Shown here: positions 9,211 through 58,185 of the stretch, piece after piece
How the letters are laid out: each line of letters opens with the position of its first letter
How positions within the stretch are numbered: position 1 is the stretch's first letter
Source of the DNA: a virus
DNA length: 64,000 nt
Virus record (IMG/VR): IMGVR_UViG_3300012009_000091
Location: 1-64,000 of that record
Direction: 5' to 3' (one strand)
Translations under genes and position numbers: made by a program
The notes under the pieces: generated by a model
Told to the model about the DNA's origin: nothing
Database searches by the model: none
What the model saw: the letters and a program-made list of their open reading frames with translations, nothing else

Positions 9211-9462
9211 GCAGCAGGTACCGCGTCATGGATTACCAACGCTCTGACTCGGGCCAGACGTGGAGCAGGACATCTTCCTGATATTTGGAGGCACGCAACC
9301 AAAGCGGGAGTACCAGCGGGTCAGCGTTGGGACGCTATCAAGAGGTACGTCCAGAGCCATCCAAGCGGGGCTGGGGATCTGGCGACGTTAGGTGCTATGG
9401 CGGTTCCTATGGGAGTCGGTACCTATGATATTGGATCGTCAGTGCTCGATCAACTAACATGA
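9208..9462 (+). CDS. Small protein upstream of sigma factor, 84 aa
   Basis: GTG start with a strong GGAGGGG site six bases upstream. The N-terminal half is amphipathic and basic (ITNALTRARRG, IKRYVQ). The C-terminal third is Gly/Ala/Met-rich and hydrophobic (DLATLGAMAVPMGVG) and could be a membrane or packing segment. The family is not recognised. It overlaps the sigma-factor gene by ATGA, so the two are likely made together. It could be a sigma partner or simply a minor virion protein; nothing in the sequence decides. Confidence 0.7.
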   Translation: MAAGTASWITNALTRARRGAGHLPDIWRHATKAGVPAGQRWDAIKRYVQSHPSGAGDLATLGAMAVPMGVGTYDIGSSVLDQLT

Positions 9463-10178
9463 CACTCAGTCGAGCAGAACGCGATATCGAGATATGGCGC
9501 GCGTGGCGTGCGGATCCTGGTCCACACACAACAGAACCACTGCTCGATTCGATTGAACCCATCGTGGAAAGTACTGTACGCAGTGTTTATGGTCGAGGTT
9601 TGACTGGCGGACGTATGCGTGTTCCGCGGGTGGTTGTGAAAGGGATGGCGAATAACCTTGCCTTAAAGCAACTCGAGACAAATTACAGTCCCGACAAATC
9701 CCAGATCAATACCTACCTGACCAACTGGTTGAGTCGAAAGTTAGCTCCCGAATTAAACACGTATCAAAATATCGTACGTATTCCACACGGGAAAGCTGAG
9801 GATATTAAACCGATTCAGCGTGTTACTAATGAGTTGGAAGAGAAGCTTCAACGGACCCCTTCTGATCAAGATATCGCTGACTACATGAAGTTGCCGGAGA
9901 AACACATACAGGCCGTTCGTCATCAAGCGTCTCAGAAGGATTACATCGCCAGTAAGGCGGAGCTCGAAACTGGATTATTCCAGACGCCGTTTCAGCGCGC
10001 GCTACGGCAGACATACATCGATTTACCGTCTCAGGATCGAGCGCTCTTTGATCTGTGGGTCAAACAAAACAAAAAGCCGGATGAGCTGATGAACTTGCTG
10101 AACGTCAATCGACGACAGTTGTCTGAAAGTCAGTCGAGAATTCGGTCTCATCTCTCCGAGAACTTGGCATTCTCATGA
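9459..10178 (+). CDS. Phage sigma-70-family RNA polymerase sigma factor
   Basis: A 239-aa protein with the order of a compact group-3 (FliA-sized) sigma. Region 2 spans about residues 24-108: YSPDKSQINTYLTNWLSRKL matches the F.P.KG..F.TY...WI pattern of region 2.3-2.4, followed by NIVRIPHG. Region 3 spans about 109-165, where EEKLQRTPSDQDIADYMKL matches the L.R.PT..EIA..L signature. A weaker region 4 spans about 186-235 (LPSQDRALFDL, then LLNVNRRQLSES). Region 1.1 is absent. It would direct a core polymerase to phage promoters. Because this phage also encodes a full core enzyme at 50236, that enzyme is the obvious candidate partner, with host core as the alternative. Starts in an ATGA overlap. 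Confidence 0.87.
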   Translation: MTLSRAERDIEIWRAWRADPGPHTTEPLLDSIEPIVESTVRSVYGRGLTGGRMRVPRVVVKGMANNLALKQLETNYSPDKSQINTYLTNWLSRKLAPELNTYQNIVRIPHGKAEDIKPIQRVTNELEEKLQRTPSDQDIADYMKLPEKHIQAVRHQASQKDYIASKAELETGLFQTPFQRALRQTYIDLPSQDRALFDLWVKQNKKPDELMNLLNVNRRQLSESQSRIRSHLSENLAFS

Positions 10179-33594: not shown

Positions 33595-34288
33595 GGCGTA
33601 ATTTCCGTCTGTCTGCGGGGCTTATACTTCTTCTCTCGCGCCCGGGGGCCGCTCCTAGTCCAGGACTGTCGGAGTCGCGAGCCATGCGTTGTCGGTTCAA
33701 GCTCTCGACGATGTCTTTGCGACCGGACACAATGGCAGAGGCGTAGTCGTAGGTAGTGTCTCCTATCAACACTCGTTCTTCTGCCTCCTCGACTCGAGGA
33801 TCTGTTTCCGCTGCTTGTTTTCGGGCCGCGTCGGTGTACTTTTTGTCTGTTGATGGGTCGATTTCTCCCTTTAGTGTCGCCAAGATCATCTTCTTGGTCT
33901 GTTTCAGGTTGGCTCTTGCGATGTCTCGATCTGCTTGGAGATCAGCCAGTTTGTCTCGATATGCCGCCAGTTCTGCATGGAAGAATTGACTTAGACCTCG
34001 AAGAGTTTCGTCATCTAGTTTGTCTGCGTTTGCTGGCGGAACGAGGGAGAGTTCTTCTTCGGGGATATTCTCACCCAGATCGCTCAGGTAGTACTTACGG
34101 CCTTCCCACTCAACCTGGATGTGGGCTTTCAAGTACTCGGGTATGTCTGGCATGGCCAATCCCCGTAGTCGTTTACTGGCCAGAAGTGCGTGGACTCGGG
34201 CCTTGAGTTCGTCTACACCCGCGCTCGCTCTTGAAATGTCGTCGGCGAGCGGCACTTGGAATCGTCGTATTTGGAAGTTGTCGCTCAC
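33584..34288 (-). CDS. Coiled-coil protein beside recombination genes, 234 aa
   Basis: GTG start with GGAGGACG upstream, in a GTGA overlap with the nuclease gene. After an N-terminal globular part (about 1-85), residues 95-145 form a charged helix (AELAAYRDKLADLQADRDIA) continuing to Lys-rich KYTDAARKQAAETDPR. The Ser/Arg-rich tail is probably disordered. The helix-loop-helix size is roughly like recombination mediators of the UvsY kind, and the RecA-like gene is nearby, but I cannot confirm homology. Treat as an unknown with a possible mediator role. Confidence 0.5.
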   Translation of the reverse strand: MSDNFQIRRFQVPLADDISRASAGVDELKARVHALLASKRLRGLAMPDIPEYLKAHIQVEWEGRKYYLSDLGENIPEEELSLVPPANADKLDDETLRGLSQFFHAELAAYRDKLADLQADRDIARANLKQTKKMILATLKGEIDPSTDKKYTDAARKQAAETDPRVEEAEERVLIGDTTYDYASAIVSGRKDIVESLNRQRMARDSDSPGLGAAPGRERRSISPADRRKLRRGS

Positions 34289-36825: not shown

Positions 36826-36964
36826 GGTCCTCCCATGGTTCTGTGCCGCATCGCGGACACCAGGTGACGGGGCCGTGGTGTTGTACTTCGGCTCCGCACG
36901 AACAGGTACCGCTTGGGGCTGCTGTCTTCTTGGTGACTTTTTGTTCTACTCCATACTTGTCCAT
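36779..36964 (-). CDS. Zinc-ribbon miniprotein, 61 aa
   Basis: Start ATG 36964 (no strong site seen; coupled to the end of the polymerase gene eight bases away). Cysteines C21-x-C23 and C36-x2-C39 make a small zinc ribbon (TCSCGAEV and WCPRCG), with a basic N-terminus and a strongly acidic tail of about 17 residues. It overlaps the RecA-like start by 47 bases. Similar small ribbons occur in phage replication and transcription accessory proteins. The acidic tail could mimic DNA or bind a basic partner. Function unknown. Confidence 0.6.
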   Translation of the reverse strand: MDKYGVEQKVTKKTAAPSGTCSCGAEVQHHGPVTWCPRCGTEPWEDHDYEENEEDIEGQQD

Positions 36965-36971
36965 GATGCAC

Positions 36972-38927: not shown

Positions 38928-38935
38928 GTCTTCTC

Positions 38936-41060: not shown

Positions 41061-41061
41061 G

Positions 41062-42357: not shown

Positions 42358-42403
42358 TCAACCCTCCGTATTGGATCATGTAAGGTACTCCGATCAGGCC
42401 TTT

Positions 42404-42700
42404 TCAAGAGTCCATGGTGATGCGGGGAGATTTGTTCTTGGGTGCCTCTTGTCCACTTTCGCCGAGTGTATTCTCCACGTCTCGCTGTACCGACTGTACG
42501 AGCTCTTTCATCTTGGCCGCTGTTTCTGGAGACCATGTTACCACCACCATCGCATCCATGAGCGCGTTGAACTCGACATCAGCCGTCGAGATCTTCACCT
42601 CCGGGATACGTACATCTACTGGCTGATCGTCCCAGTCAAATGCCGCGGTGACTCTGAAGTCGACGGATGGGATATATTTGACCTTACTACTCTTCAACAT
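42404..42700 (-). CDS. Small beta-rich protein, 98 aa
   Basis: ATG 42700 is chosen because GGAGGATCAAG precedes it; the longer frame to 42763 lies in the next gene. Sequence is beta-rich (YIPSVDFRVTAAFDW; PVDVRIPEVKIST), followed by a helical Glu/Lys part. Family unknown. It overlaps its upstream neighbour by 14 bases and lies next to the replicative helicase, separated by about 46 bases that show no clear terminator. It could be a helicase loader or clamp-like accessory, but this is a guess. Confidence 0.55.
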   Translation of the reverse strand: MLKSSKVKYIPSVDFRVTAAFDWDDQPVDVRIPEVKISTADVEFNALMDAMVVVTWSPETAAKMKELVQSVQRDVENTLGESGQEAPKNKSPRITMDS

Positions 42701-43067
42701 CTTGATCCTCCATGAATGGGAAACCGCGCCGTTCGGGACGTCCATATTCTGGGATCCACCCATCTTCTAGGGCTTCTATCCAATCCAACGCCCGGTCGGC
42801 ACACAACTCGGCTAGCATACTATGAGGACCTCCGTCAAAGAAGTCTTCATCGTTGACTGCCAGTTTGGCGGACATTTCGACTGTCACCGATTGGTAGTCT
42901 CCGGTTGCCGTGAACCGAACAGTCGCGCCGATCTCATTGTTGCGGTCGGTCTTTCGCGCTATCTTATGTAGATTATCCAATCCAGGATAGTCTACTTCAG
43001 CCACTCTCGTGCCTGTGTTTCGATCTTTGAGTTCGATTCGTCCAGACCAGTAGTTTCTTCTTGTCAT
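42687..43067 (-). CDS. Small beta-rich replication-operon protein, 126 aa
   Basis: ATG 43067 sits in a TGATG overlap and has a GGAGACA site; the TTG at 43070 is rejected. Beta strands dominate the first 80 residues (YWSGRIELKDRNTG; IGATVRFTATGDYQSVTVEMSA), then an acidic helical tail (ALDWIEALEDGWIPEYG). Family unknown. Together with its neighbour it forms a pair of small beta-rich proteins of unknown role. Confidence 0.6.
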   Translation of the reverse strand: MTRRNYWSGRIELKDRNTGTRVAEVDYPGLDNLHKIARKTDRNNEIGATVRFTATGDYQSVTVEMSAKLAVNDEDFFDGGPHSMLAELCADRALDWIEALEDGWIPEYGRPERRGFPFMEDQDVEE

Positions 43068-43621
43068 CAATTGTCTCCTGTCGGTTTGAATGATGCTCGC
43101 CGTGTATTCGGTTCGCGGGTGACGATCCCTGCGTCTATGAGTGCTTCTTCGTCGATCTCTCCGGCCTTGACGAGCTTCTTCCAGACGCCGCGATCGACTT
43201 TTATTTCACGTCGGAGAAGGGGCTTTCCTTTGTGTTCCATTTTGAGATCTACATGTTGCTCGAGTTTTTCCAGATCGAATGTGTAGCCGTATCCTCCAGA
43301 CGTACTTTTGCACTTCCATCCCTTGTATTCGATTGCCCTTTGTGTTTTGCGGGCGAGTTCATGGCCCCGAGCTACGAGTGTGTTTCGTCGACTGAGCAAA
43401 GTCGATTCTTGTTCTTCCCAGCTCGTAGGCGCGGGAGTGTTGGTTGAGAGGTCCTCTACTTGCTCGAGGAGATCGGGATGCTGCTTCAGCGTCTCGTAGA
43501 GCAGATGGGCCTGGTTTTTTTCCTGCTGAAGGATCGATAATTTGCCGTCTATTATGTGGATGTTGTCGATGATGCGACGTACAGATCCGGTGCCACGATC
43601 CATTTTCATCGTTGTCTTCAT
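43067..43621 (-). CDS. Coiled-coil protein, 184 aa
   Basis: ATG 43621 has a GGAGACCCC site; the longer frame to 43735 would overlap the glycosylase gene. Residues 15-100 are a helical coiled-coil (RIIDNIHIIDGKLSILQQEK; EEQESTLLSRRNTLVARGHE). A globular C-terminal half follows, with an aromatic core (YKGWKCKSTSGGYGYTF). Family unknown; no ATPase or nuclease motif. Confidence 0.6.
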   Translation of the reverse strand: MKTTMKMDRGTGSVRRIIDNIHIIDGKLSILQQEKNQAHLLYETLKQHPDLLEQVEDLSTNTPAPTSWEEQESTLLSRRNTLVARGHELARKTQRAIEYKGWKCKSTSGGYGYTFDLEKLEQHVDLKMEHKGKPLLRREIKVDRGVWKKLVKAGEIDEEALIDAGIVTREPNTRRASFKPTGDN

Positions 43622-43629
43622 GGGGTCTC

Positions 43630-44382
43630 CTATACGACGTACTTGGCGACATCTTTGATGTAGCTGCTGATTTGACTGCCGGTGTATTGCGCCTGGATGT
43701 AATCCACGACCGCTTGGGCTCGAACCAGACTCCACACAAATTGGTAGTAGGGGTGCGTACCTTGAGCCAGTTTGTGGCCATTGGTGATCGATGGGTAGTC
43801 GTCAGTACGGCTGTCCAGTTTGCGGTTCACGTAGGACGGGTGCCATGTGATCATCGCTTCATATGTCAAGTTTCCCTTTACGCGACTAGGAATGGTAAAC
43901 GCGGCCACTTCTCCTCTTACACTGCCGATCGACACATTACCTAGAAGCGCTTTGGCCGCGTGGGTGCCCATAGCAATAATGAGAAGAGGGTCTACGTGGT
44001 AGATTTCTTCGTATAGTCGAGGTCGGCATGCTTTTACTTCGGCATCTGTTGGGGCGATGCTTTTTTTCCAATTGTCGTGATCGCACGGTCGACACATCAC
44101 CGCGTTGGTGATCCGAATGGAGCTTCTATCGATGTCGATAATGCTCAATACATCGTCGAGTAGCTCCCCTGATTGACCGGTAAATGGCATGCCAGTTTTC
44201 TCATCATGTCGTCCTGGGGCTTCCCCGATGATCATGATGTCGGCATTCAAATCACCTGCCCCCCAAACTGGAGGGCCTCTCCGTCTGGCCGCAATTTCGC
44301 AACGTTCACACTCTTCGTTCCAGCCCTCCTCATCCATCCAGGACTCGAACCGGTTGGGGTCCAGAATTCCTATGTTTTCCAT
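43630..44382 (-). CDS. Uracil-DNA glycosylase, family 4/5-like with Fe-S cluster
   Basis: A 250-aa protein with ADIMIIGEAPGRHDEKTG (GEAPG 53-57) and PFTGQSGELLD, the first catalytic region of family 4/5 UDGs, and TWHPSYVNR (HPS 181-183) as the second motif. Cysteines C25-x2-C28, C97 and C119 fit the 4Fe-4S site of this family. The enzyme should remove uracil from DNA in base-excision repair, perhaps protecting the phage genome. AGGAGGACC precedes the ATG. Its gene lies between the SF2 helicase and replication genes. Very strong family call. Confidence 0.9.
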   Translation of the reverse strand: MENIGILDPNRFESWMDEEGWNEECERCEIAARRRGPPVWGAGDLNADIMIIGEAPGRHDEKTGMPFTGQSGELLDDVLSIIDIDRSSIRITNAVMCRPCDHDNWKKSIAPTDAEVKACRPRLYEEIYHVDPLLIIAMGTHAAKALLGNVSIGSVRGEVAAFTIPSRVKGNLTYEAMITWHPSYVNRKLDSRTDDYPSITNGHKLAQGTHPYYQFVWSLVRAQAVVDYIQAQYTGSQISSYIKDVAKYVV

Positions 44383-45722
44383 GTGGTCCTCCTGATTTGA
44401 TATGCATAGCGAATACAGTTCCGTTCAAACCCACGAAAGGTGCGATTGAGCAGCGGAACGTCTGTGGGGTTGTAGGCGAAAACCATGGGTTGTTTCTTGT
44501 CAGGGTGCTCTCTGACGATTCTTCCTAGTCCTTGGATGAATCGCCGTGTCCCAGACCACGGCAGACAGATGTGTAGCGTGTCCAACTCCGGTTTATCGAG
44601 CCCTTCTGTTGCAATCGACGCGCTGGCGAGAATCGTGTCACATGTTGTGAGGATGTCTTGCCGTTTCTTTGCGTCCGTATCGCCGACGAGGACTTTTGAG
44701 TTCGGTATACGGTTGGACAAGAGACGCAACTGTTCGATTCGATCACTCAAGATTAATTGAAGTCGTCCGTTTTTTTGATTCTCTACAATGTAGTGGGTGA
44801 TAGCGTCGTTGATGCGGCTGGCCGCCACTTCGTTAATGGTGCGCGCACGTTCAGAATCTACACCAGCGTCGAAGGCAAAGATCCGCCGCTTCGCCAATGC
44901 GGATAATTGCGCTTCGACATCTACGATAGTGACCATCGGGTCTAGATCCGTCTCTTCACTTCGATAGATGACGCGGCCGATATGGTTCAAGAAAACTCTT
45001 TCTCGACCGGCCATCGCCACTGTTGCGCTGAGACCAACTCGAACACCGTTGCAGATTGGAAGGGCATGTCGAAATGATCGGCCTTGATAGTGGTGAACCT
45101 CATCGTAAATGGCCAATCCGAATTGCCCGCTGAGGTGTAGGCTTTTATCTCGATTGCGGGATAAAGATTGAGCCATACCGACTACCAGATCTTTTCCTTG
45201 CCAGGTCCACTTCCCTCGCTCCCCACCGATGCTCCCGATCTTCTCTTCTGGAAGCCCCATGAGTTGGACAGCCCCTTTTATCCATTGCGATTGGATAATG
45301 GCTGTGTTTACCACTACGAGTGTTGGAACTGCGTAGTGTTGCATGAGTTGATATCCAACGGCCGTCTTTCCTGTGCCTGGCGGTAACTCGATGATACCTC
45401 CTCCAGCTTCGAGGAGACAGTCAATTGCCTCGGCTTGTACGCGCTGAGCCCGCACTGATTTGGCGCCTTGTGGGCTTACGGAGCGCGTACAAGCCGCAAA
45501 GGCCACGGGGACTGGCGGATCCAGTCGATCTACTGGCAGACTGAGCTGCGCCATTGTTTCGTCTGTCAGTAACTCACGAGGTACTGCCCACACATCCCCC
45601 AGATCCCGGAATTCTTGAATGACCGTGTTGTCTGGATAAACACACGCTGCTTTGCGTTTCAAGAAGTGCGGATTGAGGGATCCTTTGGGAAAGTAGGCCC
45701 ATGACCCTTTGATGACCTTCAT
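44370..45722 (-). CDS. SF2 helicase, XPB/UvsW-like, DEVH box
   Basis: A 450-aa SF2 translocase. It has motif I PPGTGKT (114-120), motif II YDEVHH (D207-E208), motif III LSATV (231-235), and motif VI QGLGRIVREH, with a second RecA lobe (TLHICLPWSG). The family includes UvsW and XPB-type helicases, which remodel branched DNA and stalled forks. It overlaps the glycosylase start by 13 bases and is ATGA-coupled to the leader gene, so repair and fork-restart functions are made early. Its partner could be the RecA-like protein. Confidence 0.88.
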   Translation of the reverse strand: MKVIKGSWAYFPKGSLNPHFLKRKAACVYPDNTVIQEFRDLGDVWAVPRELLTDETMAQLSLPVDRLDPPVPVAFAACTRSVSPQGAKSVRAQRVQAEAIDCLLEAGGGIIELPPGTGKTAVGYQLMQHYAVPTLVVVNTAIIQSQWIKGAVQLMGLPEEKIGSIGGERGKWTWQGKDLVVGMAQSLSRNRDKSLHLSGQFGLAIYDEVHHYQGRSFRHALPICNGVRVGLSATVAMAGRERVFLNHIGRVIYRSEETDLDPMVTIVDVEAQLSALAKRRIFAFDAGVDSERARTINEVAASRINDAITHYIVENQKNGRLQLILSDRIEQLRLLSNRIPNSKVLVGDTDAKKRQDILTTCDTILASASIATEGLDKPELDTLHICLPWSGTRRFIQGLGRIVREHPDKKQPMVFAYNPTDVPLLNRTFRGFERNCIRYAYQIRRTTWKT

Positions 45723-46219
45723 TTGATGTCCTTCTTAGTGAGCCAGTCATTTGTCAGTACCATCAAGCCGACTCCGTATGCTCCGTTCAGGAGCGCTTTT
45801 GTTTTATCGGCGATCCGGGCTTCCATCGGTCGTTTGCGCTCCGCGGGTTTCGACCGGCCGGTGAACAGTGTACTACTGATGTCCAGCAGAGTCTCGCGGT
45901 TCACCATTCGCTGGACCCGCCTTCTTCTTTTCTGATACTCGAACTCTTCGGCGTCCAGTTCATCCACCTCTTCTTCTTCGTCCTCCTCGTCCTCCTCGTC
46001 CTTCGCGTCCACAAGGACGTCTCCGTATTCTTCTTCCAGTAGGGCAAGCTCTTCCTCTAACTCGCGTTCCTTTTTTCTTTTGCGCCTTCGCCTGTGTGCT
46101 AGAGTCTCTCGAACAGATCGTCGATGTCGTTTTCGGCGACGTCTCTTCTGGGGACTTTCTTCGTTTTCGTCAAGGGCATCTGTGTCGTCTCCATACTTCG
46201 ACGTGTACCAGTCATTCAT
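45719..46219 (-). CDS. Highly charged leader-gene protein, 166 aa
   Basis: First gene of the replication operon (GGAGG site ten bases before the ATG), ATGA-coupled to the helicase. The N-terminal third is acidic then very basic (QKRRRRKRHRR), the middle is an uninterrupted acidic tract of Glu/Asp (about residues 70-90), and the C-terminal 60 residues are more ordered (RIADKTKALLNGAYGVGLMV). Family unknown. Early position and acidic-basic blocks suggest an effector that binds nucleic acid or a host protein. Function is unproven. Confidence 0.65.
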   Translation of the reverse strand: MNDWYTSKYGDDTDALDENEESPQKRRRRKRHRRSVRETLAHRRRRKRKKERELEEELALLEEEYGDVLVDAKDEEDEEDEEEEVDELDAEEFEYQKRRRRVQRMVNRETLLDISSTLFTGRSKPAERKRPMEARIADKTKALLNGAYGVGLMVLTNDWLTKKDIK

Positions 46220-46325
46220 AGCGTCGTAACCTCCGGTTTAGGTGCTGCCACTTATACGGAGTGTCCACTCGTTGACGCCCCTGATTTCTCAGGGTAAGCT
46301 GGGGATCGAATAACGGAGGATAGTC
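46220..46325. promoter_or_regulatory. Divergent control region with promoter-like boxes and two inverted repeats
   Basis: 106 bases separate the two divergent operons. On + there is TTGACG (46272-46277), a 17-base spacer and TAAGCT (46295-46300), a fair -35 with a poor -10. The spacer holds the inverted repeat CCCTGA-TTTC-TCAGGG (46279-46294). Just upstream is GAGTG-TC-CACTC (46259-46270). On - there is a TATAAG box (46256-46251) without an obvious -35. Operators or phage-polymerase promoters are both possible. GGAGG sites for both first genes lie at its edges. Confidence 0.5.
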
Positions 46326-48238: not shown

Positions 48239-50236
48239 ATGTTCGGATCTTCGGCCAGTCTTTCCTCTCCGATGACCCAGCGGCATAATACACGCGGCTC
48301 TGGGCGAATCGGGATTAACTACCCGAACCCCTTCTTTGATTTGTCGCAGATTTACCTACCCCAGAACATGCGCTCGTTGTTCAAGTGGTGTAGATACTAT
48401 GCACTCACGTACGGGCCCATTTTCGCGTTTGTCACCAAGATGGCCTCGTACGCATTGACTCGGTTAGTATGGGGAAGTGATGCCCAGGCAGACCCTGAAA
48501 GGAGGGCTAATCAGAATCTAGCGACGCAGTGGAAAGATTTCTTTGAAGATACGCTGCAGATCTACAAGGCGTGTTATCGAGGTGGGCTGCATTACTGGAC
48601 GTACGGTAATTGGTACTTGTCTATTCACTATCCGTTTGATCGGTGGCTCGCCTGTCCTTCATGTAAACATGAGATGCTGGCGAGAAGATTCCCCAAGAAG
48701 GGGTATCGGTGGCATAGTTACAAGTTCCACGGTAGGTGTACAGCATGCGGATCTGATGTGACTTTCAAAGTCAAGGATGTGCCAGTCCGTTCAAGCAAAC
48801 GCATCAAGCTCAAGCTGTGGAATCCCGAACGTGTGTATCCAGTCGTCAATGAAGCGACGGACGATGTGGAATACTACTATAAGCCGACTCAACAGCTCAT
48901 CAAACGTATCGATCGAGGCGATCGGAAAGTCGTAGAAACTACGCCTTGGCCTTTTATTCAAGCGGCTAAGAAAAATAAAGACGGGTTGGTCAAGTTCAAC
49001 AATCGGAACTTCTTGCACATCTCCGCTCCATCACCCGACGGAAACGAGACGGGGATGGGGCACCCGCCGATACTAGCGGCCATCAAGGATGTGTTTCACT
49101 TACAGTTGATGAAGAGGGCACAGGAGGCTAATGCTGTAGAGCGGACTATTCCTCTTACCGTAGTGCACCCTCTCCCGATGGGAGATGATACGATCAATCC
49201 TCTTCAGTCCACGAATTTAGTCAACTTGATGGACTTCCTCAAAGATGAGGTGGCGATCGCGCGCCGAGATCCCAACTACATTCCATTTTCTCCTCTTCCT
49301 GTCGGCACGTCGCATATCTGGGGAGAAGGGAAGAATCTCCTCCTCGTCCCGGAGATTCGTGGGTGGACCGAGTTGATTGCAGCTGATCTCGCGGTGCCCA
49401 TTGAGTTTATGTTTGGCGGGATGCAATGGTCAGGGTCCAACGTCAGCTTGCGTATGCTCGAGAATCAGATCCTGACTTTCACGACTGGGTACAAGCAGGT
49501 CACTAGGTTCGTCACCAAAGCTGTGGCTAGATTCTTATGGTGGCCTGAGTGTCCGCATGACTGGACTCCGTTCAAAATGGCCGATGACATACAGCTCAAG
49601 CAGCACATGTTGATGTTGTCGCAGCTGAACAAGATTGGTGATTCTACTCTACTCTCTCACTTCGGGAAGAACCCTGTCGATGAAAAAGCCGACATCGAAG
49701 CTAGCATGAAGCAAGCGAATCGCATCGCAAAAGATCAGTTGCTTGCTCAAGCGGAGGCTCAGGTTGAGGCCATGGAGATGCAGCAGAATGCTCAGATGGA
49801 GATGCAGCAACAGCAGAGTACGGGACTTCCTACCGAAACCAGTCAGGCTGCGGCGGGAGCGCCACCTCCTGTGCAAGAGGAGGAATCACAAGAGGAGTTT
49901 GCATATCGTATGGCGGAGCAGCTTGTGAATCAGTCTGAAGATGTGATCCAGCAGACGTTACAACAGGTGTCTGCTCAGTCTCCAGAATTAGCTCAGTTCA
50001 TCTATCAGTTGATTCAACAGCTTCGCGCGGAGACGCAGCAGCCTGTGCAATATGGTCAGCAGCCTGCCCAACAGCCTGCCCAACAGCCTGCTATGGGCGG
50101 ATACAATCAAGCTCAGGTTGTTAGCGGTCCAGAAGGCCAGCTACATCAACAATATGCAGCATCGACTCGACAGATGATGCAGCCTCAACCGCAGATGCGT
50201 CCTCCACAGCGGGGACCTGCTAGTACAGCAATCTGA
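48239..50236 (+). CDS. Portal protein with embedded zinc ribbon, 665 aa
   Basis: Long N-terminal helix region (LFKWCRYYALTYGPIFAFVT), then the portal-type core with GMGHPPILAAIKDVF and, near residues 370-400, IPEFM-like VPIEFMFGGMQWSG. The latter resembles the portal stem/crown segment. An inserted zinc ribbon has C139-x2-C142 and C167-x2-C170 (ACPSC, CTACG). The C-terminal 170 residues are Gln/Met-rich and low in complexity (QPAQQPAQQPA). Portals sit at the head vertex and pass DNA. A TGATG overlap couples it to the RNA polymerase. Confidence 0.7.
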   Translation: MFGSSASLSSPMTQRHNTRGSGRIGINYPNPFFDLSQIYLPQNMRSLFKWCRYYALTYGPIFAFVTKMASYALTRLVWGSDAQADPERRANQNLATQWKDFFEDTLQIYKACYRGGLHYWTYGNWYLSIHYPFDRWLACPSCKHEMLARRFPKKGYRWHSYKFHGRCTACGSDVTFKVKDVPVRSSKRIKLKLWNPERVYPVVNEATDDVEYYYKPTQQLIKRIDRGDRKVVETTPWPFIQAAKKNKDGLVKFNNRNFLHISAPSPDGNETGMGHPPILAAIKDVFHLQLMKRAQEANAVERTIPLTVVHPLPMGDDTINPLQSTNLVNLMDFLKDEVAIARRDPNYIPFSPLPVGTSHIWGEGKNLLLVPEIRGWTELIAADLAVPIEFMFGGMQWSGSNVSLRMLENQILTFTTGYKQVTRFVTKAVARFLWWPECPHDWTPFKMADDIQLKQHMLMLSQLNKIGDSTLLSHFGKNPVDEKADIEASMKQANRIAKDQLLAQAEAQVEAMEMQQNAQMEMQQQQSTGLPTETSQAAAGAPPPVQEEESQEEFAYRMAEQLVNQSEDVIQQTLQQVSAQSPELAQFIYQLIQQLRAETQQPVQYGQQPAQQPAQQPAMGGYNQAQVVSGPEGQLHQQYAASTRQMMQPQPQMRPPQRGPASTAI

Positions 50237-53200
50237 TGCAAGAGATATATAATTTCGATCAAATCAAAGAATCGGTTCAGGAGGCTCTCGGCCAGATTTT
50301 TCCTGTCGCTGGAAGAAACTTGGTTGTCGATCTCAATTCTCTTGATATACGAGATCGGAAGAATCCCGCATCGGTTCATGAGCAGTACGGAGCGTTGACG
50401 TCAGGTCGTTCGTGGACCATCCCGGTCTATGCCAACGTTACGCTTCGCGGCCCGGACGGGGAGTTGGATCGAGGACGGGTTAAAGTACTTGAACTTCCGA
50501 AACTGACCGAGAGAAATACGTTTATCGTCGATGGGAACGAACGTCAGTTGCACAGTGTGCTTCGACGGAAATCCGGAGTGTACACGCGACATGATGAAGT
50601 GGGGGACCTTGTTTCCGAGTTCAATTTGGATAACGGTCTGCATGAGGGAGGAAAGACTGACCGAGGTCGGAAGTTCGCCATACATTTCGACAACACGACC
50701 AACCAGTTCTACACACGTTTAGGTGGAAAGAAGAAAATCAATGCCTACACGCTTCTCGAGTCTCTGGGTCACGATATGGAGGGTCTCCGACAGCGCTTTG
50801 GGGATGAGATCCATTCGAAGAATCTCAAACGGACGTCGAAGAAGATCAAGCAAGATGTTTCGAAGATCTATGACACGATCTACGGATCGAAGGCCAAATC
50901 AGGATTGACTTCAGACCAGATGCGGCAACAGATCCAAGAGGCTTTCCGTAGAACGAAAGTAGATCCGGATACGACTAAAGTTACCCTTGGTACGCCAGCC
51001 GATTCCATTGACTCTAACATCCTCGTGAGAAGCATGGACAAGTTGTTGAACATCTCTCGCGGTCAGGAGAAGGAAGATGATCGTGAGAGTTTGGTGTTCA
51101 AGAAGGTCGTGTTCCCCCCGCAATTGATTGCGGAACGTGTGTCGCATCACCGCAACATCGAGCAGATTCGAGGGAAGATTCGGGCCAAGCTCAATGTCCG
51201 CGGTCGTGGTCGGAAATCACCTGAGCGAGTTGGCGAAGCTGTACCTACGCGCTTGTTGGATAAACCTTTACATGATCTCTTCGCTGAGTCGACCGAATCC
51301 GATCTGGTTGATCAACCTAACCCTGTAGGGATTGCGTCGGGCTACAATCGGATCAGCATGTTGGGTACAGGTGCAATTCGGTCTCTTGATCAGATCCCAT
51401 CAAGTGCTCCTCTGATTTCTCCGTCTCACTTAGGATATATTGATCCGCTACATACTCCAGAGTCGCATAAGGCCGGCGTGTCTGTACATCTCCCGATGAA
51501 CACCAAGATGGGAGAGGACAAACGCCTCGTTTCTCGTATGTTGACTCCGGATGGAGAGGAGAAGTGGGTAGCCGCGGAAGACGCTGCTCAAGCGGTGGTT
51601 GCTGCTCCTGATAGTTACGATATGCGTAGCGGTCGTCCTGTGCCCCGCGGTAAGACTGTTCAAGTTCAGCGAAATGGAGAGATTGAAGACGTCGATCCGA
51701 CTGAAGTAGATTACATCATCCCTCATGCGCGTGATGTGTTCGATGTTGCTACGAACTTGGTGCCTTATCTTCAGAACAACCAAGGGAATCGCGCGATGAT
51801 GGCCGGAAAACATGCTACTCAGGCGCTTCCCTTGAAATACAGAGATACTCCTCCAATTCAAACAGGAATCGAAGGAGATTTAGGCGAGACTGCCGGTGCA
51901 CGGAGGTCGCCTGTTTCAGGGCGTGTTTCTGATATCACTGAAGTGGATGGCGCGTATGAAATCCGCATCCAAGAATCAGGAAAGACCCGTCCGACCATCG
52001 TTCGTGCGTATCGCAACTATCCCATGGCGAAAGGCGTGGTGATGGATTCAGACTTGAAGGTCCAACCAGGGGACTCAGTCAAAACGGGTGATCTTCTAGC
52101 GGATTCGTCTTTCACCAAGGATGGTATGCTGTCTATGGGGACGCCTCTTCGTACAGCTTACATGCCTTGGTATGGCAGGAACTTTGAGGATGGGGTCGTC
52201 ATTTCGGATCGGGCCGCAGACCAGCTCACGTCTCTTCATCTCCATGAAAAGTCAAAGTATGAACCTGAGGCTATCAGTGATAAAACTCGGTTTCTGGATT
52301 GGTATCGGGCTCGATTTCAATCGCAAGATGAGATCAATGCTCTTGATGGAAGTGGTGTGATTCAGAAAGGGCAGACTGTCCAACCTGGTCAGATCCTGAT
52401 GGCTCGACTCAAACAGGTCGAGCGAGATAGTGAGGAAGCTAGACTTCGCAAACGGATGAAGCTAACGCCGTTTGATCCAGTCGTCATGACCTGGGATAAG
52501 GAGGTGCCGGGGACAGTCACTGATGTTCGGAAGAACCGAGACGGTACTGTCCGCGTCTTTGTGAAGACCGAAGAGAAGATGCGGGAAGGAGACAAGCTGG
52601 TCAGCCGCAATGCAAATAAAGGGATTGTGGTGAAGATCCTACCTGACGCAGAGATGCCACAAACAAAAGACGGGAAGCAAGTGGATGTTCTCTTGTCACC
52701 ATTAGGTATTCCTAGTCGCATTAATCTAGGACAAGTACTTGAGACGGCGGCGTCCAAAGTCGTAGAGAAAACAGGGAAACCGATCAATCTGTCGGATCAG
52801 ATGTTTGGCCCCAATAGCGATATTAAACATGTCCAACGATTACTGAAAGACGCTAAAATCACTGATACAGAAGAGCTGGTCGATCCTACTCGAGGGAACA
52901 AATCATTCGGGAAGGTTTTTACTGGTCCACAGTATTTCTATAAGTTGGAACATCAAGTCGCAAAGAAAGAGCGCTCTCGAGGACAAGGAAAATATGATCG
53001 ATGGGATGTGCCTGCAGGGGGAGATGGAGGCGCGCAGACCATCGGAGAGTTAGGCACGTACGCCATGTTGTCTCATGGGGCGGTTGAGAATCTACGGGAC
53101 ATGCAGCTCTACAAATCTCAGAAGAATGATGAGCTCTGGGATGCTTTGATCCACGGCCAACCTATCCCGCCTCCTAAACACATTACGCCCAATGTGCGCT

Positions 53201-56200
53201 TCGAGTCTTTATTGCGTACTGCTGGGGTGAAGTTGAAGAAAGGGGATACACTCAGTTTGATCCCACAGACCGACGAGCAGACCGAAAAGCTGGCTCGGGG
53301 ACGTCCTCCGCTGGAGGACGCCGGACGGATGTATGCGTTTCAACGAGATCGGGTTGTGGAAGAGCCTGAAGGCCTGTTTGATCCTGTCAAGACTGGTGGG
53401 TCAGAGGGAGATAGGTGGAGTTACTTTCGGCTTCCGGAACCGATTCCCAATCCAATGTTTGCTCCGGCTATTTCGTCTTTGACGGGTTGGTCTGAGTCTA
53501 CACTCAAACGGGTGGTCGAGGGTAAACAGGAATATGGGGGTTTGATCGGTGGACCGGCGGTCGCGAAGCGCCTTGAGGAGGTAGATCTGGATGCGGAAGA
53601 AGCGAAGCTTCGGGAGCAAGCCCAGAGTGTACAAGGAAGAAAACGCCTCAACATGGAGAACAAAGCCAAGGAGTTGAGTCGGATCTATCGGAGACTTCGG
53701 TATGTAACGGCTTTGAAAGGTCGGGATCTTCGTCCTGAGAAAGTGTATATGATGCAGAATGTTCCTGTTCTGCCGCCAAAGTTGCGTCCTGTTATCGCTC
53801 TTAGTAGTGGGGAGCGGTCGGCTGACGACATGAACAACCTTTATCGAGATCTTGCGCTGGTTTCGAATACTATGAAGGAGAGTCAAGAGCGGGGGGTCTC
53901 TCCTAAGCACCTGCAGCCTTTGCGTGGCGCCTTGTATGATGGCCTCTCTGCTTTGATCTCTGCTAAGAGTGGGGATCGCCCGTTGAGTGGGGCATACAGA
54001 GGGGTCATTGGTTCTATCTCCGGTAAACGCCCTGTAGAGGAGGGAAAAGGCGAAGTAGGGCAGGCCAAAGGCGGATTATTTCAAGATCAAATCACGCGTC
54101 GTCGACAGGATTTCTCAGCTCGGACGACGATCACGGTTGAACCTCGACTCGAGATTGATCAGATTGGTATGCCCTTCAAAATGGCGTACGAGATTTATTC
54201 TCCGTGGGCACAAAAGCGGTTGCGGGAAAAGTATGGGTACGCTACTCGAGACGCGCGTAAGTACTATGAAGAGAAGGGCCCTGATGATCCGCGTGTACGG
54301 GACGTTCTCTCTGATGCGGTAGCCGAGCGGCCTTCACTTGTCAAACGGGATCCCGCTTTGCACAAATTCAACGTGATGGCTTTCAATCCAGTTCTGGTGG
54401 AAGGCAGTGCATTACAAATCCACCCGTTGGTGACCGGAGGATTCAATGCGGACTTTGATGGCGATACGATGTCCGTATACGTGCCTGTGAAAGAGGAGGC
54501 GGTTGAAGAGTCTTATAAGATGTTGCCTTCTAACAACATCTACAATCCGACAAACGGCAAGTTGATGTACGCCCCGAGTCAAGAAATGGTTTGGGGCTTA
54601 CACAGTCTCACTAGCGTAGGAAAGAAGACCAATTGGAAGTTTGGATCTCGCAAAGCAGCGGAAAGCGCGTTGAATCGTGGGGATGTTCACCAAACAGATC
54701 GCATCAAAATAGGCACGCGTGAGACAACTTTAGGGTGGGAAAAAATCAACGACATTCTCCCCGGCCGGTTTCGTTTCAAAGGGTCTTTGGACAATCGAAA
54801 GCCACTTGACAAGCATCGAATTTCTGACTTGTTGAGTAAGGTCGCTGCAAAGGAACCTGAAACATTCGCCCCACTGGTAAACACTCTCAAGGATGTCGGT
54901 AATCAAAACGCTACAGAAGATGCGTCGTCTTTTTCTCTGAAAGACTTTGATGTGGTAGGTCAGGAGTTCCGAGATCGCACTTTTCGGGAAGCCGAAGAAA
55001 AGGCATCTCGAAGTAAAGATCCACTTGGCGTGCTGTCTGATGCGCTCAAGAAAGTTGATCGACACACTCTTGAAGTGCTGAGTTCGCAAAAGAAGCCGAA
55101 TGCGATCTTTCAAATCGTCACGTCGGGATCGAAGGCCAGTTGGCCTCAGCTCAAGCAAATTGTCAGTGCTCCTGCATTGGTGTACGACACTCAAAATCGA
55201 ATTGTCCCGCGATTGATCAAAAAGTCGTACAGTGAAGGTTTACCGTTGATGGATTATTGGACGGGTCTCCACGGAGCCCGAAAAGGGGCTATCAATAAGT
55301 CCATCTCGACGTCCCGTCCCGGATATCTTGGGAAACAGGTGATGCGGTCTGTGATTGATCAGGTTGTTGTGGAAGATGATTGCGGAACGCGACAAGGTCG
55401 ATCGATGTCGCCGGATGATCCAGAAGCGGTTAATCGGTATTTGGCGTCCGGTATTCGAGTTCAGGGCGGGAAGCGAGATCGGAATTTCAATCGTAATTCG
55501 GTGGTAACGCCGAACATAGTGTCCTCTCTTCGTGCCCACAAGACCCCTTCGATACATGTACGATCTCCCATGCGATGCGAAAGTACGGACGGTGTGTGCG
55601 CTAAGTGTATGGGGTTGGACGAGGAAGGACGGGATTATGCCGTTGGAACGAATGTCGGTGTTCAGGCCGCTCAAGGAGTAGGGGAGCCGTCGACGCAGTT
55701 GTCATTGAATGTATTTCATACCGGTGGGGTGGTAGAGGATCCCAATATTCCTGTTGAGAGCGATCGTCTGCAGCGTGCTGAACACTTGTTGCGGCTTACT
55801 CAACGAATCCCCAATAGTGCTGTGCTCTCTCCGAGATCTGGAAAGATCGAAGGAGTACGAGAAGCTCCTCAGGGAGGACATGAGGTTAAGATCGATGGAA
55901 AAGAGATCTACATTCCCCATGAGAAGAAGTTGTTCGGCAGTATCAAACCGGGTCAGGAGATAGGCAAAGGCGATCCGATGACAGCGGGGCCCATCCATCC
56001 GCTCGAGGTATTGAAGTACAAAGGTACGTATGCCGCGCAGGATACTCTCGCGGATCAATTGTACGACCTCTATAAGGGTGCTCGTGGCACCAAGAAGAAA
56101 CACTTTGAGGTGATCGTACGAGGGATGTCCAAGAACACACAGGTATTGGATCCAAAGGACTCTGAGTGGGAGTCTGGACAAGTGACGTCATTGACGAAAG

Positions 56201-56478
56201 TTAAGAAACATAATCGAGAAGCAGGGAAAGACCAGCGGGTCAAACATCTGCCTATCATGCGTGGAATTGGGACGTCTCCCCTGTTGTCTGAAGATTGGAT
56301 AGCTCGGCTCAATGGAGAGCGACTTCGGAGTACTATCGTAGGGGCGGCCACTCAAGGTTGGGAATCTCAGGCGCACAGTACTCACCCTATCCCCGCGATG
56401 ACTTTTTTGAATGAAGAAGAGCTGTCGGAAGAGTCAGGCTTTGGGCGGCCTATCCAACCGATACGATCTCCGTATTAG
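50236..56478 (+). CDS. Single-chain (fused beta-beta-prime) multisubunit-type RNA polymerase, 2080 aa
   Basis: One uninterrupted polypeptide carries both large bacterial RNAP subunits. Beta part (about 1-1030): HLGYIDPLHTPE (398-409), MPWYGRNFED (E651, D652), EGDKLVSRNANKG (K787, K795, equal to E. coli K1065/K1073) and SPLGIPSRINLGQ. Beta-prime part (about 1040-2080): EGLFDP (1045-1050), PVLPPKLRP (1177-1185), DFSARTTITVEP, the catalytic NADFDGDTM (D1406, D1408, D1410), the bridge helix with HGARKG (1679-1684), zinc site C1716, C1781, C1788, C1791, and the trigger loop GEPSTQLSLNVFHTGG (H1828). The N-terminal zinc ribbon is missing, Arg933 is replaced by Asn1825, and the clamp helices (about 1197-1240) are diverged. 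All other catalytic elements look intact. It should transcribe phage genes; no alpha or omega is seen nearby. Confidence 0.95.
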   Translation: MQEIYNFDQIKESVQEALGQIFPVAGRNLVVDLNSLDIRDRKNPASVHEQYGALTSGRSWTIPVYANVTLRGPDGELDRGRVKVLELPKLTERNTFIVDGNERQLHSVLRRKSGVYTRHDEVGDLVSEFNLDNGLHEGGKTDRGRKFAIHFDNTTNQFYTRLGGKKKINAYTLLESLGHDMEGLRQRFGDEIHSKNLKRTSKKIKQDVSKIYDTIYGSKAKSGLTSDQMRQQIQEAFRRTKVDPDTTKVTLGTPADSIDSNILVRSMDKLLNISRGQEKEDDRESLVFKKVVFPPQLIAERVSHHRNIEQIRGKIRAKLNVRGRGRKSPERVGEAVPTRLLDKPLHDLFAESTESDLVDQPNPVGIASGYNRISMLGTGAIRSLDQIPSSAPLISPSHLGYIDPLHTPESHKAGVSVHLPMNTKMGEDKRLVSRMLTPDGEEKWVAAEDAAQAVVAAPDSYDMRSGRPVPRGKTVQVQRNGEIEDVDPTEVDYIIPHARDVFDVATNLVPYLQNNQGNRAMMAGKHATQALPLKYRDTPPIQTGIEGDLGETAGARRSPVSGRVSDITEVDGAYEIRIQESGKTRPTIVRAYRNYPMAKGVVMDSDLKVQPGDSVKTGDLLADSSFTKDGMLSMGTPLRTAYMPWYGRNFEDGVVISDRAADQLTSLHLHEKSKYEPEAISDKTRFLDWYRARFQSQDEINALDGSGVIQKGQTVQPGQILMARLKQVERDSEEARLRKRMKLTPFDPVVMTWDKEVPGTVTDVRKNRDGTVRVFVKTEEKMREGDKLVSRNANKGIVVKILPDAEMPQTKDGKQVDVLLSPLGIPSRINLGQVLETAASKVVEKTGKPINLSDQMFGPNSDIKHVQRLLKDAKITDTEELVDPTRGNKSFGKVFTGPQYFYKLEHQVAKKERSRGQGKYDRWDVPAGGDGGAQTIGELGTYAMLSHGAVENLRDMQLYKSQKNDELWDALIHGQPIPPPKHITPNVRFESLLRTAGVKLKKGDTLSLIPQTDEQTEKLARGRPPLEDAGRMYAFQRDRVVEEPEGLFDPVKTGGSEGDRWSYFRLPEPIPNPMFAPAISSLTGWSESTLKRVVEGKQEYGGLIGGPAVAKRLEEVDLDAEEAKLREQAQSVQGRKRLNMENKAKELSRIYRRLRYVTALKGRDLRPEKVYMMQNVPVLPPKLRPVIALSSGERSADDMNNLYRDLALVSNTMKESQERGVSPKHLQPLRGALYDGLSALISAKSGDRPLSGAYRGVIGSISGKRPVEEGKGEVGQAKGGLFQDQITRRRQDFSARTTITVEPRLEIDQIGMPFKMAYEIYSPWAQKRLREKYGYATRDARKYYEEKGPDDPRVRDVLSDAVAERPSLVKRDPALHKFNVMAFNPVLVEGSALQIHPLVTGGFNADFDGDTMSVYVPVKEEAVEESYKMLPSNNIYNPTNGKLMYAPSQEMVWGLHSLTSVGKKTNWKFGSRKAAESALNRGDVHQTDRIKIGTRETTLGWEKINDILPGRFRFKGSLDNRKPLDKHRISDLLSKVAAKEPETFAPLVNTLKDVGNQNATEDASSFSLKDFDVVGQEFRDRTFREAEEKASRSKDPLGVLSDALKKVDRHTLEVLSSQKKPNAIFQIVTSGSKASWPQLKQIVSAPALVYDTQNRIVPRLIKKSYSEGLPLMDYWTGLHGARKGAINKSISTSRPGYLGKQVMRSVIDQVVVEDDCGTRQGRSMSPDDPEAVNRYLASGIRVQGGKRDRNFNRNSVVTPNIVSSLRAHKTPSIHVRSPMRCESTDGVCAKCMGLDEEGRDYAVGTNVGVQAAQGVGEPSTQLSLNVFHTGGVVEDPNIPVESDRLQRAEHLLRLTQRIPNSAVLSPRSGKIEGVREAPQGGHEVKIDGKEIYIPHEKKLFGSIKPGQEIGKGDPMTAGPIHPLEVLKYKGTYAAQDTLADQLYDLYKGARGTKKKHFEVIVRGMSKNTQVLDPKDSEWESGQVTSLTKVKKHNREAGKDQRVKHLPIMRGIGTSPLLSEDWIARLNGERLRSTIVGAATQGWESQAHSTHPIPAMTFLNEEELSEESGFGRPIQPIRSPY

Positions 56479-56487
56479 AGGACCACC

Positions 56488-58185
56488 GTGCCACAATCGA
56501 GAATACAGCAGCGTGATCGAACGTCGAGACGACAGCCTCCTGCAGCTATCTCTAAGGGCCGGATTCGAGATGTGCATCCTAGATATTGGACGGTAGATGT
56601 GGAGCTCGAGAATGGCGCATTCATCGAGAGCGCACCTGTGGTCTCTCCGTATTTTCACCAGGAAAATGGAGAAGGGTTCAGCGCTCTTCCGGAAATAGGG
56701 GCTCACTGTCTTCTCCTTACTGGTACCGCAGAGGGGTATGAACCGGCGGTGTTAGCGTTCACGCCGCTTCGATCCACGGAGTATCAAGAATCTGAGGAAC
56801 CAGAAGAAGATCATAGTGCTGGGCGAGGTCCTGCTGTCCCTGGGGATATTTACATCCACGGCCGAGATGAGAATTTCGTACGGCTTCGACGTGGGGGAGT
56901 TGTAGAGATCGGGGCGGATGAAGGCACTCGCTCTTGGTACATTCCATTTGGCAATCTCATTCGGCATATCTGCGCTAACTATGAGCTGTCTGTCAGCGGT
57001 TCGGTGGCGCGGATCAATACCCTCGATTCGCCGGAGATCCCGGAAGAGGGGCCGACCCCTCTTCAACTCGATCTGAGATTGCAAGAGTACGTCGAGAAAG
57101 CCCCTCTCATCGACTTGAAAATGGGACACGTGGTGGATGACGAGGGGAGGTCCTTGGCGGCCAATCAGGGGGATATCGTTGCGCGTATGTTGGTGTTTGA
57201 TCAAACAACCGCAGATGCTGCTCAGCGGGATGGCATTGATCCTAGTCCGGATCAAGCCGCTGTGGCGATTCGTTTTGATAAGAACGGAAATGCTGAGCAG
57301 ATCATGTCGGGTCAGTGGCTCGTGCAAGCAGCTGGTCGCCGTCTGTACCTGACCGATTCCGATGTTCAATTAGTCCGAGGAAATCGACGTGAGGAGATCA
57401 CGGGAAATGCAGACCGTCATATCGGAGGCGATGTTATCGATCGTGCTGATGGTTCGCGGGTGATTCAATCACGAGGCCCCTTGACGATCAGTTGTGAACA
57501 ATTACAGATCGAAGAACAGCGAGCGCGACAGACTTCGATGGCCGGGAATCGAGGTACTATTGTAGGTGGGAATTCGGAAGATCAGGTCGCGGGTGATCGA
57601 ACTACTGGATCGGGTGGTGGGGTCAACGATACGTGTTTGGGGAATCGAGCTGTTACTACTGGTGGGAAGGTCATCGAGACAGTGTTGCATGCAGCAGAAC
57701 CGACTAGCATGTTGCAGGGTGCTGTAGCACATCTACTCGACGTCCTGGACGGCACGATTCGTCAAAAAGCGCGGCTGGGAAATATAGAGCTCGAGGTTGG
57801 TCCTCTCGGCTCTCCGATTTGTAAAATTACAGTACACAACAACCCCACACAACCTACAGAGATAGGACGTGTTTCTATTACCTGGGCGAACCCTGCTATG
57901 AAGTTGATTATCGACGGGTTGACGGGAGCGGCCACATTTACGAATATGATAGGGGAGTGGACACTGGGTGCTGACGGTCGGCAGTATGTCGGCCCTCGTG
58001 GTGGAAGCGGGCCTGGTGCAGGGAATGTCGTGACGACGAATACACATCCGTTCTGTTACGTAACCGGCGCGCCCATTATTGGGTGTTCAGGCTCTACTGC
58101 TGCTGGGGTTCCGGCGCCAGGTCCAGCTGCTCCGGTAGTAGGGCCAGCGGATAACATTCCTGATCCTGACATACCGAGGCCGTGA
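56488..58185 (+). CDS. Baseplate central spike (gp5/gpV-like), 565 aa
   Basis: GTG start ten bases after the polymerase stop, with a GAGGACC site. Residues 22-95 have an OB-fold pattern (GRIRDVHPRYWTVDVELENG, then FSALPEIGAHCLLLTG), as in the first domain of spike proteins. A polar middle (to about 300) leads to a beta-helix-like shaft (VQLVRGNRREEITGNADRHI; GNSEDQVAGDRTTG). The end carries THPFCYVTGAPIIGCSGS, which may help cap the tip through a metal site. The protein would pierce the host envelope. A Gly/Pro-rich tail follows. Confidence 0.7.
   Translation: MPQSRIQQRDRTSRRQPPAAISKGRIRDVHPRYWTVDVELENGAFIESAPVVSPYFHQENGEGFSALPEIGAHCLLLTGTAEGYEPAVLAFTPLRSTEYQESEEPEEDHSAGRGPAVPGDIYIHGRDENFVRLRRGGVVEIGADEGTRSWYIPFGNLIRHICANYELSVSGSVARINTLDSPEIPEEGPTPLQLDLRLQEYVEKAPLIDLKMGHVVDDEGRSLAANQGDIVARMLVFDQTTADAAQRDGIDPSPDQAAVAIRFDKNGNAEQIMSGQWLVQAAGRRLYLTDSDVQLVRGNRREEITGNADRHIGGDVIDRADGSRVIQSRGPLTISCEQLQIEEQRARQTSMAGNRGTIVGGNSEDQVAGDRTTGSGGGVNDTCLGNRAVTTGGKVIETVLHAAEPTSMLQGAVAHLLDVLDGTIRQKARLGNIELEVGPLGSPICKITVHNNPTQPTEIGRVSITWANPAMKLIIDGLTGAATFTNMIGEWTLGADGRQYVGPRGGSGPGAGNVVTTNTHPFCYVTGAPIIGCSGSTAAGVPAPGPAAPVVGPADNIPDPDIPRP

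Follow-up and report, generated by a model that had tools for sequence, protein, structure and literature searches.

Can a tailed phage carry both large subunits of a bacterial-type RNA polymerase (RNAP) in one polypeptide, and what would such an enzyme work with? The question arises from a 64,000-nucleotide stretch of an IMG/VR virus record (IMGVR_UViG_3300012009_000091, positions 1 to 64,000; hereafter the window), in which an earlier note had placed the landmarks of both beta and beta' in a single frame.

One reading frame for beta and beta'

The frame at 50236–56478 runs from ATG to stop with zero internal stops and encodes, as a single polypeptide, the entire catalytic core of a bacterial-type beta/beta' RNAP. 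Its Pfam matches include Rpb2_6 (2.8e-51), Rpb1_2 (1.1e-24) and Rpb1_5 (2.4e-24), and it matches bacterial beta' at an E value of 1.8e-107 with the full bacterial domain order. The features of the chain and its neighbors are as follows.

48239..50236, + strand: portal protein gene (blastp to the Arash portal, E 4.6e-72)
50236..56478, + strand: single-chain beta-beta' RNA polymerase, 2080 aa (ORF, Pfam, AlphaFold2 models)
50236..53265, + strand: beta part, aa 1 to ~1010 (Pfam Rpb2_3 and Rpb2_6; alignment of the bacterial beta C-terminus extends to aa 1015)
52594..52620, + strand: K787 and K795 (E. coli beta K1065 and K1073), conserved without exception across the phage set and bacteria
53235..53280, + strand: fusion junction, aa ~1000–1015, without a linker (overlapping profile alignments)
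53266..56475, + strand: beta' part, aa ~1011–2080 (Pfam; Foldseek to bacterial beta', TM <=0.78, E ~1e-61)
53407..53409, + strand: deletion point of the beta' N-terminal zinc ribbon (C70, C72, C85, C88), a profile-alignment gap
53827..53967, + strand: beta' clamp helices, with the residues that dock sigma region 2 replaced (residue map, 19 phages)
54445..54465, + strand: NADFDGD catalytic loop, aa 1404–1410 (D1406, D1408 and D1410 invariant in 58 homologues)
55381..55608, + strand: zinc site 2, C1716, C1781, C1788 and C1791 (four Cys present in 17 of 19 phages mapped)
55684..55728, + strand: trigger-loop start EPSTQLSLNVFHTGG, with H1828 corresponding to E. coli H936 (residue alignment)
56488..58185, + strand: baseplate hub/gp5-like gene (phrog_430, E 4.9e-5)

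Column-by-column alignment with E. coli RpoB and RpoC put the landmarks where the earlier note had them, with HTPE at aa 406–409, the bridge helix at ~1676–1710 and the trigger loop at 1817–1831. In E. coli numbering, the chain keeps beta R678, E813, D814, K1065, K1073, R1106 and H1237, and beta' R425, D460, D462, D464, R780, Q929 and H936. The H526 position carries a residue other than His in all 19 phages compared, and the purified enzyme is accordingly predicted to be insensitive to rifampicin. D1406, D1408 and D1410 form the DxDxD Mg-binding motif of two-barrel (DPBB) RNAPs in the beta' barrel, and this triad aligns with the bacterial NADFDGD, the residues whose misalignment would have undone the assignment. 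From its sequence, the chain is predicted to be catalytically active as an RNA polymerase. Every catalytic residue that we checked is present, but the description of the core as near-complete was overstated, since the chain has lost the zinc ribbon at the N-terminus of beta': none of its four cysteines, invariant in bacteria, is found in any of 19 phages.

In profile alignments the end of bacterial beta reaches aa 1015 and the start of beta' begins at aa 1000, so that the two overlap. The fusion point proposed near residue 1030 lies slightly earlier, at about aa 1000–1015. An AlphaFold2 model of aa 1–1200 (pLDDT 86.8, pTM 0.76) resembles bacterial beta in the PDB, a model of aa 880–2079 (pLDDT 88, pTM 0.87) resembles bacterial beta', and the junction itself is modelled as ordered (pLDDT ~88–94).

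A single frame of this kind could be produced by an assembly join of two separate genes. We give this explanation next to no weight: the 61%-identical counterpart at locus L005, which comes from a different metagenome, is likewise one uninterrupted ORF (2077 aa), and the single-chain form recurs at about 95 other viral loci. Divergence from L005 by codon position (0.35/0.22/0.67) is also about equal on both sides of the junction, which fits one protein under purifying selection. Alternatively, the frame could encode a polyprotein or use an internal start, so that separate beta and beta' chains are at work. An in-frame ATG at 53329 (aa 1032), preceded by an SD-like GGAGGA, would suit this reading, as would relatives of another clade that encode separate pieces. 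However, the Met at aa 1032 is common only to the closest relative and falls where the N-terminal segment of beta' has already begun, and the junction, ordered in the model, offers no cleavable linker, making separate chains very unlikely.

The portal gene ends in an overlap with the RNAP start (TGATG). Portal homologues, which match phrog_16240, occur at 121 loci, usually directly 5' of the RNAP, and the baseplate hub/gp5-like gene adjoins it at 77 loci, with a median of +7 bp. Together with terminase genes nearby, this neighborhood bears out the placement of the enzyme in a tailed phage.

Relatives and known polymerases

A profile scan found relatives of the RNAP in at least 453 IMG/VR stretches. 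With these and the ~95 single-chain loci, the single-chain phage RNAP is not rare, and the earlier view that a fused core is unusual in phages did not hold. A tree of phage and bacterial sequences places the phage RNAPs in a clade separate from bacteria (support 1.0), and a scan of genome contigs returned only ordinary bacterial rpoB-rpoC, with no cellular origin for the fusion among them.

Two cultured phages, Arash of Salmonella and D69 of Vibrio, have beta joined to the N-terminal part of beta' at the identical junction, with the portal gene upstream. They differ from the single-chain phage in carrying the C-terminal part of beta' as a separate gene, at 26–30% identity. Even in three-piece phages, the beta chain extends ~100 residues into beta'. 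Because none of the 149 loci read has a beta ORF that stops at the beta/beta' boundary, the sequences suggest that fusion of beta and beta' was ancestral and that splitting into pieces came later.

Fused RpoBC proteins are known in bacteria, in Helicobacter and Wolbachia. The corresponding models (NF007172 and NF011417, with 2890 and 2839 positions) likewise join beta to beta', and the phage chain scores below their cut-offs (510 bits vs 5372 and 461 vs 4632), as it does for bacterial RpoB (327 bits vs 801, TIGR02013) and RpoC (496 vs 964, TIGR02386). The polymerases of crAss-like phi14:2 (gp66), YonO and P23-45 (gp64/gp96) are phage-encoded and have both barrels in one polypeptide, as here. 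These single-subunit enzymes are very diverged, with little cellular similarity (PMC7481178; PMC7281927; PMC10770324), unlike the present chain with its strong match to bacterial beta'. The phiKZ and AR9 RNAPs resemble the phage chain in having neither alpha nor omega, and their beta' is divided at a site beyond the barrel, a position shared with the Arash-type relatives (PMC7598289). They are, however, made of four or five weakly similar pieces, with beta/beta' in at least four polypeptides instead of one frame, and the AR9 match covers 11% of the 2080-aa chain.

A close published counterpart is mReC, a clade of bacterial-type phage RNAPs (Weinheimer and Aylward, 2020; PMC7481178). It too comprises phage-encoded beta/beta' that align to cellular enzymes, form a deep clade of their own and have tailed-phage structural neighbors. 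Its members are recognized by strong matches to beta and beta' profiles, a length above 800 aa, NADxDGD and a stop codon (PMC7481178), all of which the 2080-aa chain has when NCBIfam models are used instead of COG0085 and COG0086. Our single-chain group likely overlaps with mReC. It is a serious possibility, though short of probable, that we describe a plain mReC member whose fused organization was perhaps known to its authors; this would bear on novelty and not on mechanism. The profile matches and the clade separate from bacteria speak for it. However, the main text of that paper describes beta and beta' subunits, and we found in it fusion for crAssphage only, and no single chain, sigma factor or promoter (PMC7481178). 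The two datasets that the paper names, 3300017989 and 3300000786, are not among our loci, and mReC reference contigs were not among the matches listed in a DNA-pattern scan for GFNADFDGDTM. Neither this fused RNAP family nor GGTATAAG as a phage promoter was found in open-licence papers.

A sigma-family gene and a promoter-like signal

What is new here is the conserved sigma70-family gene and the GTATAAG/GGTATAAG signal that accompany this RNAP. Both were absent from the earlier note. Within the window they are represented as follows.

9459..10178, + strand: sigma70-family factor, 239 aa, proposed RNAP partner (Pfam Sigma70_r3, 3.1e-6)
33621..33627, - strand: GTATAAG promoter-like site
46251..46257, - strand: GTATAAG promoter-like site before a leftward replication block

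The sigma ORF scores 27.6 bits to Sigma70_r3, above the Pfam cut-off of 25.3, and its regions 2 and 4 alone fall below the Pfam threshold. It was detected only via Arash gp10. A family profile, built from six diverged members with 20–54% identity to the ORF, matches SigA from region 2 to region 4 in order (E 9.9e-15). A contig-wide Pfam search for sigma regions 2 and 4 missed this gene and gave one weak match, at 104880, which we rejected because its protein sequence reads as an XRE-type HTH. Stretches were joined for whole-genome analysis. The sigma family is present in 28 of 30 genomes with a single-chain-group RNAP, Arash and D69 sharing it, and in none of six phages whose RNAP is of another kind.

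GTATAAG occurs in 32 copies against 7.6 expected. Fourteen lie 20–75 nt before a Shine-Dalgarno start, compared with a mean of 0.79 and a best of 4 for permuted 7-mers. GTATAAG or GGTATAA is the top upstream 7-mer in G000, G018, G001 and Arash and ranks second in G014 and G026; D69 and G019 have variants, the form in Arash and D69 being GGTATAAG/GTTATAAG. The signal is weak in fragments of the closest relatives, a search of G005 and G002, both GC-rich relatives, did not detect it, and three control phages lack it. The sites precede non-structural genes: 30 of 31 GGTATAAG sites in Arash are on the non-structural strand, and in G000 the + strand of the structural modules has zero GTATAAG sites.

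A proposed two-protein holoenzyme

Bacterial-type RNAPs require alpha for assembly. Neither alpha (PF01000) nor omega (PF01192) was detected in 22 genomes, with controls detected in 13/14 and 14/14. In the mechanism that we propose, beta continues into beta' without a linker to form, in one polypeptide, the core of a DNA-dependent RNA polymerase, and, given the missing linker and the lack of alpha and omega genes, the covalent link probably substitutes for the alpha-dimer assembly platform. Promoter specificity would be supplied by the phage sigma (9459–10178), which we infer pairs with the core, and the resulting two-protein holoenzyme would read the -10-like GTATAAG (GGTATAAG in relatives) before non-structural genes. 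With the sigma gene in most relatives examined and a matching promoter in many, this looks like a compact, self-contained system, and we consider the combination of single-chain core, phage sigma and GTATAAG promoters probable.

The sigma is tied to GTATAAG by co-occurrence as the sole basis, and the docking surface leaves two options. The positions of E. coli R275 and E295 in the clamp helices are substituted in 19 of 19 phages, R271 and R281 are changed too, and the flap tip, which binds sigma in bacteria, is lost or replaced, so the sigma must either dock otherwise or bind the host core. T4 gp55 redirects the host RNAP core, and by that precedent a host enzyme redirected by the phage sigma could use GTATAAG, leaving the single-chain enzyme to serve another class, such as late TAAAATA-type genes. 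Arash and D69 do have a second signal, CTAAAATA/TAAAATA[TC], mostly on the structural strand, and Arash shows a small excess of sigma70-like sites, a pattern also seen in the T4 control, so the host polymerase may contribute. Against this division of labor, the sigma family tracks the single-chain-group RNAP, GTATAAG is common to phages of different hosts, and G000 has no clear excess of sigma70-like sites. We regard it as unlikely, and favor recognition of GTATAAG by the phage sigma with the single-chain core.

The RNAP core and sigma genes are both located in structural modules. Core and sigma may be packaged in the virion and injected to start early transcription, a speculative step that we put forward tentatively and on which gene position and the distribution of promoter sites bear. 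Somewhat more doubtful still is the whole picture taken jointly: a widespread phage lineage with a two-protein holoenzyme, its sigma at a remodelled surface, made late, packaged and injected, reading early GGTATAAG promoters independently of the host enzyme, in which fusion came first and multi-piece forms arose by splitting.

A natural core in one chain that can be aligned with bacterial enzymes and works with one sigma would offer a minimal setting in which to ask what bacterial transcription cannot do without, and would suit the study of sigma docking without the usual clamp-helix contacts. It may also serve as an orthogonal transcription tool. Fused, two-piece and three-piece forms make up an evolutionary series within one phage lineage, and its cultured members, Arash and D69, make these predictions testable now.

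A single-chain RNA polymerase and its relatives

The earlier note had placed both large RNA polymerase (RNAP) subunits of this phage in one uninterrupted reading frame, and the ORF analysis bore this out:

50236-56478, + strand: single-chain beta-beta' RNAP, a single 2080-aa ORF

The virus record holding the window comprises 167,069 bases and has an exact 55-bp repeat at its ends, so the phage genome is probably closed, judging from sequence. Pfam, NCBIfam and PDB searches placed beta domains at aa ~250-1000 and beta' domains at aa 1100-2040. When mapped on E. coli RpoB/RpoC, all 19 phage sequences compared proved to retain every catalytic residue that was checked in the two halves, among them DxDxD, beta K1065 and K1073, beta' R425 and trigger-loop H936 (E. 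coli numbering). AlphaFold2 models built from 58-row alignments were confident for aa 1-1200 (pLDDT 86.8, pTM 0.76) and aa 880-2079 (pLDDT 88, pTM 0.87), and matched bacterial beta' (TM up to 0.78) as well as bacterial beta in the PDB. We consider the core identity of the chain near certain.

An artefactual frame was ruled out, as a phage from a different dataset carries the same single frame (2077 aa) at 61% protein identity. Third codon positions diverge ~3 times as much as second positions, uniformly along the chain. A second IMG/VR profile scan contained at least 453 relatives. We read 149 loci by ORF, drawn from two such scans and two cultured phages: the RNAP is a single chain at 97 (~95 after same-contig duplicates), has beta fused to the N-terminal part of beta' with the C-terminal part (beta'C) separate or unseen at 18, lies in three pieces at 24, and is truncated or broken at 10. 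Two loci, L027 and L078, have contigs 99.98% identical, one with its frame broken near query aa 690-714 by a sequencing error or a real lesion. The homologue at L029:7977-14120 lacks all four zinc site 2 Cys. Unannotated 'phage' records in the phages collection (OR846602, OR844998, OR849902 and similar) matched both subunits in two pieces at ~27-28% identity and are possibly contaminating environmental or bacterial contigs.

Seven of the 97 single chains exceed 2250 aa. Long chains of ~2480-3249 aa (L053:7974-17720, L039, L040, L047, L051, L076, L087) carry inserts at the most conserved sites, namely NADFDGD, beta K787-K795, near HTPE and the trigger loop. These inserts are probably inteins; one in L053 scores as an intein N-terminal region. 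L041:7962-15354 has two overlapping RNAP ORFs (1815 and 690 aa), split where the NADFDGD insert sits; either a split intein or a frameshift might explain this.

The beta/beta' junction and altered surfaces

In profile alignments, bacterial beta aligns through aa 1015 and beta' from aa 1000, an overlap that leaves no linker. The zinc ribbon that bacterial beta' carries right after the junction (C70, C72, C85, C88) is deleted in all phages compared. Even the 'beta' ORF of three-piece phages continues ~100 residues into beta' before it stops, and no beta ORF at the 149 loci stops where beta naturally ends. A bacteria-rooted tree unites the phage proteins in one clade (support 1.0), with three-piece RNAPs nested inside the two-piece clade. 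The simplest reading of these sequences is one ancestral beta-beta' fusion followed by splits. A less likely history, in which the single-chain group regained beta'C by re-fusion, keeps its standing because the basal branch order is weakly supported (0.29-0.91).

The E. coli beta' clamp helices (R275, E295 and neighbours) are known to bind sigma region 2, and the flap-tip helix to bind sigma region 4. In every phage compared, both surfaces are replaced, these residues included. None of these phages has His at the Rif-pocket position H526, and the bridge helix has Pro before the hinge Gly, where bacteria have Ser or Ala. Searches for alpha and omega genes found none in 22 genomes; the same searches score in 13 and 14 of 14 controls.

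A sigma factor and a promoter-like signal

The cultured relative Salmonella phage Arash encodes an annotated sigma factor, gp10, amid structural genes (gp196 is its second annotated sigma). The window holds a homologue:

9459-10178: sigma70-family factor (family A6), homologue of Arash gp10 (E 1.3e-10)

Sigma70_r3 occurs in 6/6 A6 members, with the window's member above cut-off, and the match of the family profile to SigA spans regions 2 to 4 (E 9.9e-15). A6 was present in 28/30 genomes of this RNAP group, one of the two negatives being a 27-kb fragment, and in 0/6 phages with other RNAPs.

This phage has 32 copies of GTATAAG, where dinucleotides predict 7.6. Of these, 14 sit 20-75 nt upstream of a Shine-Dalgarno start, a placement for which permuted words average 0.79. 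In unbiased 7-mer counts, GTATAAG or GGTATAA ranks first in this phage, G018, G001 and Arash, and second in G014 and G026; variants appear in Vibrio phage D69 (GTTATAAG) and G019 (GGTCATAAG). The counts found no such signal in two GC-rich relatives or three control phages. Arash has the extended form GGTATAAGtAA.gTGtAa, with 30/31 sites on the non-structural-gene strand; the remaining site precedes gp9-gp10, the sigma operon. The structural modules of our phage, RNAP and sigma inside, have no + strand site. A site at 46257 heads a leftward block (31705-46219) that includes:

35515-36825, leftward: RecA-like protein
36972-38927, leftward: DNA polymerase A
40041-41060, leftward: primase-like Toprim protein
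41062-42357, leftward: DnaB-like helicase
44370-45722, leftward: helicase

A second upstream signal, CTAAAATA / TAAAATA[TC], lies mainly on the structural strand in Arash (L280-L283) and D69, resembles T4 late promoters, and also precedes gp216, the beta'C gene. In Vibrio phage Va2 the upstream 7-mer CCTTGCT is strong (21 regions vs 0.9 expected) and may be the promoter for the diverged RNAP that Va2 itself encodes.

Implications for phage transcription

The known single-chain two-barrel phage RNAPs have been characterised as very diverged (PMC7281927, PMC10770324). Fusion is a recurrent event in RNAP evolution (PMC7281927), and PMC7481178 describes mReC, a clade of bacterial-type phage RNAPs. 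Within open-licence papers, we found no report of this single-chain bacterial-type phage RNAP group, its sigma or its promoter.

From co-occurrence and placement, we infer that the sigma pairs with this core and that a holoenzyme of the single chain plus one sigma would read GTATAAG. Host RNAP may initiate phage transcription. As RNAP and sigma lie in structural modules while the promoters precede other genes, gene order suggests that both proteins may be packaged in the virion.
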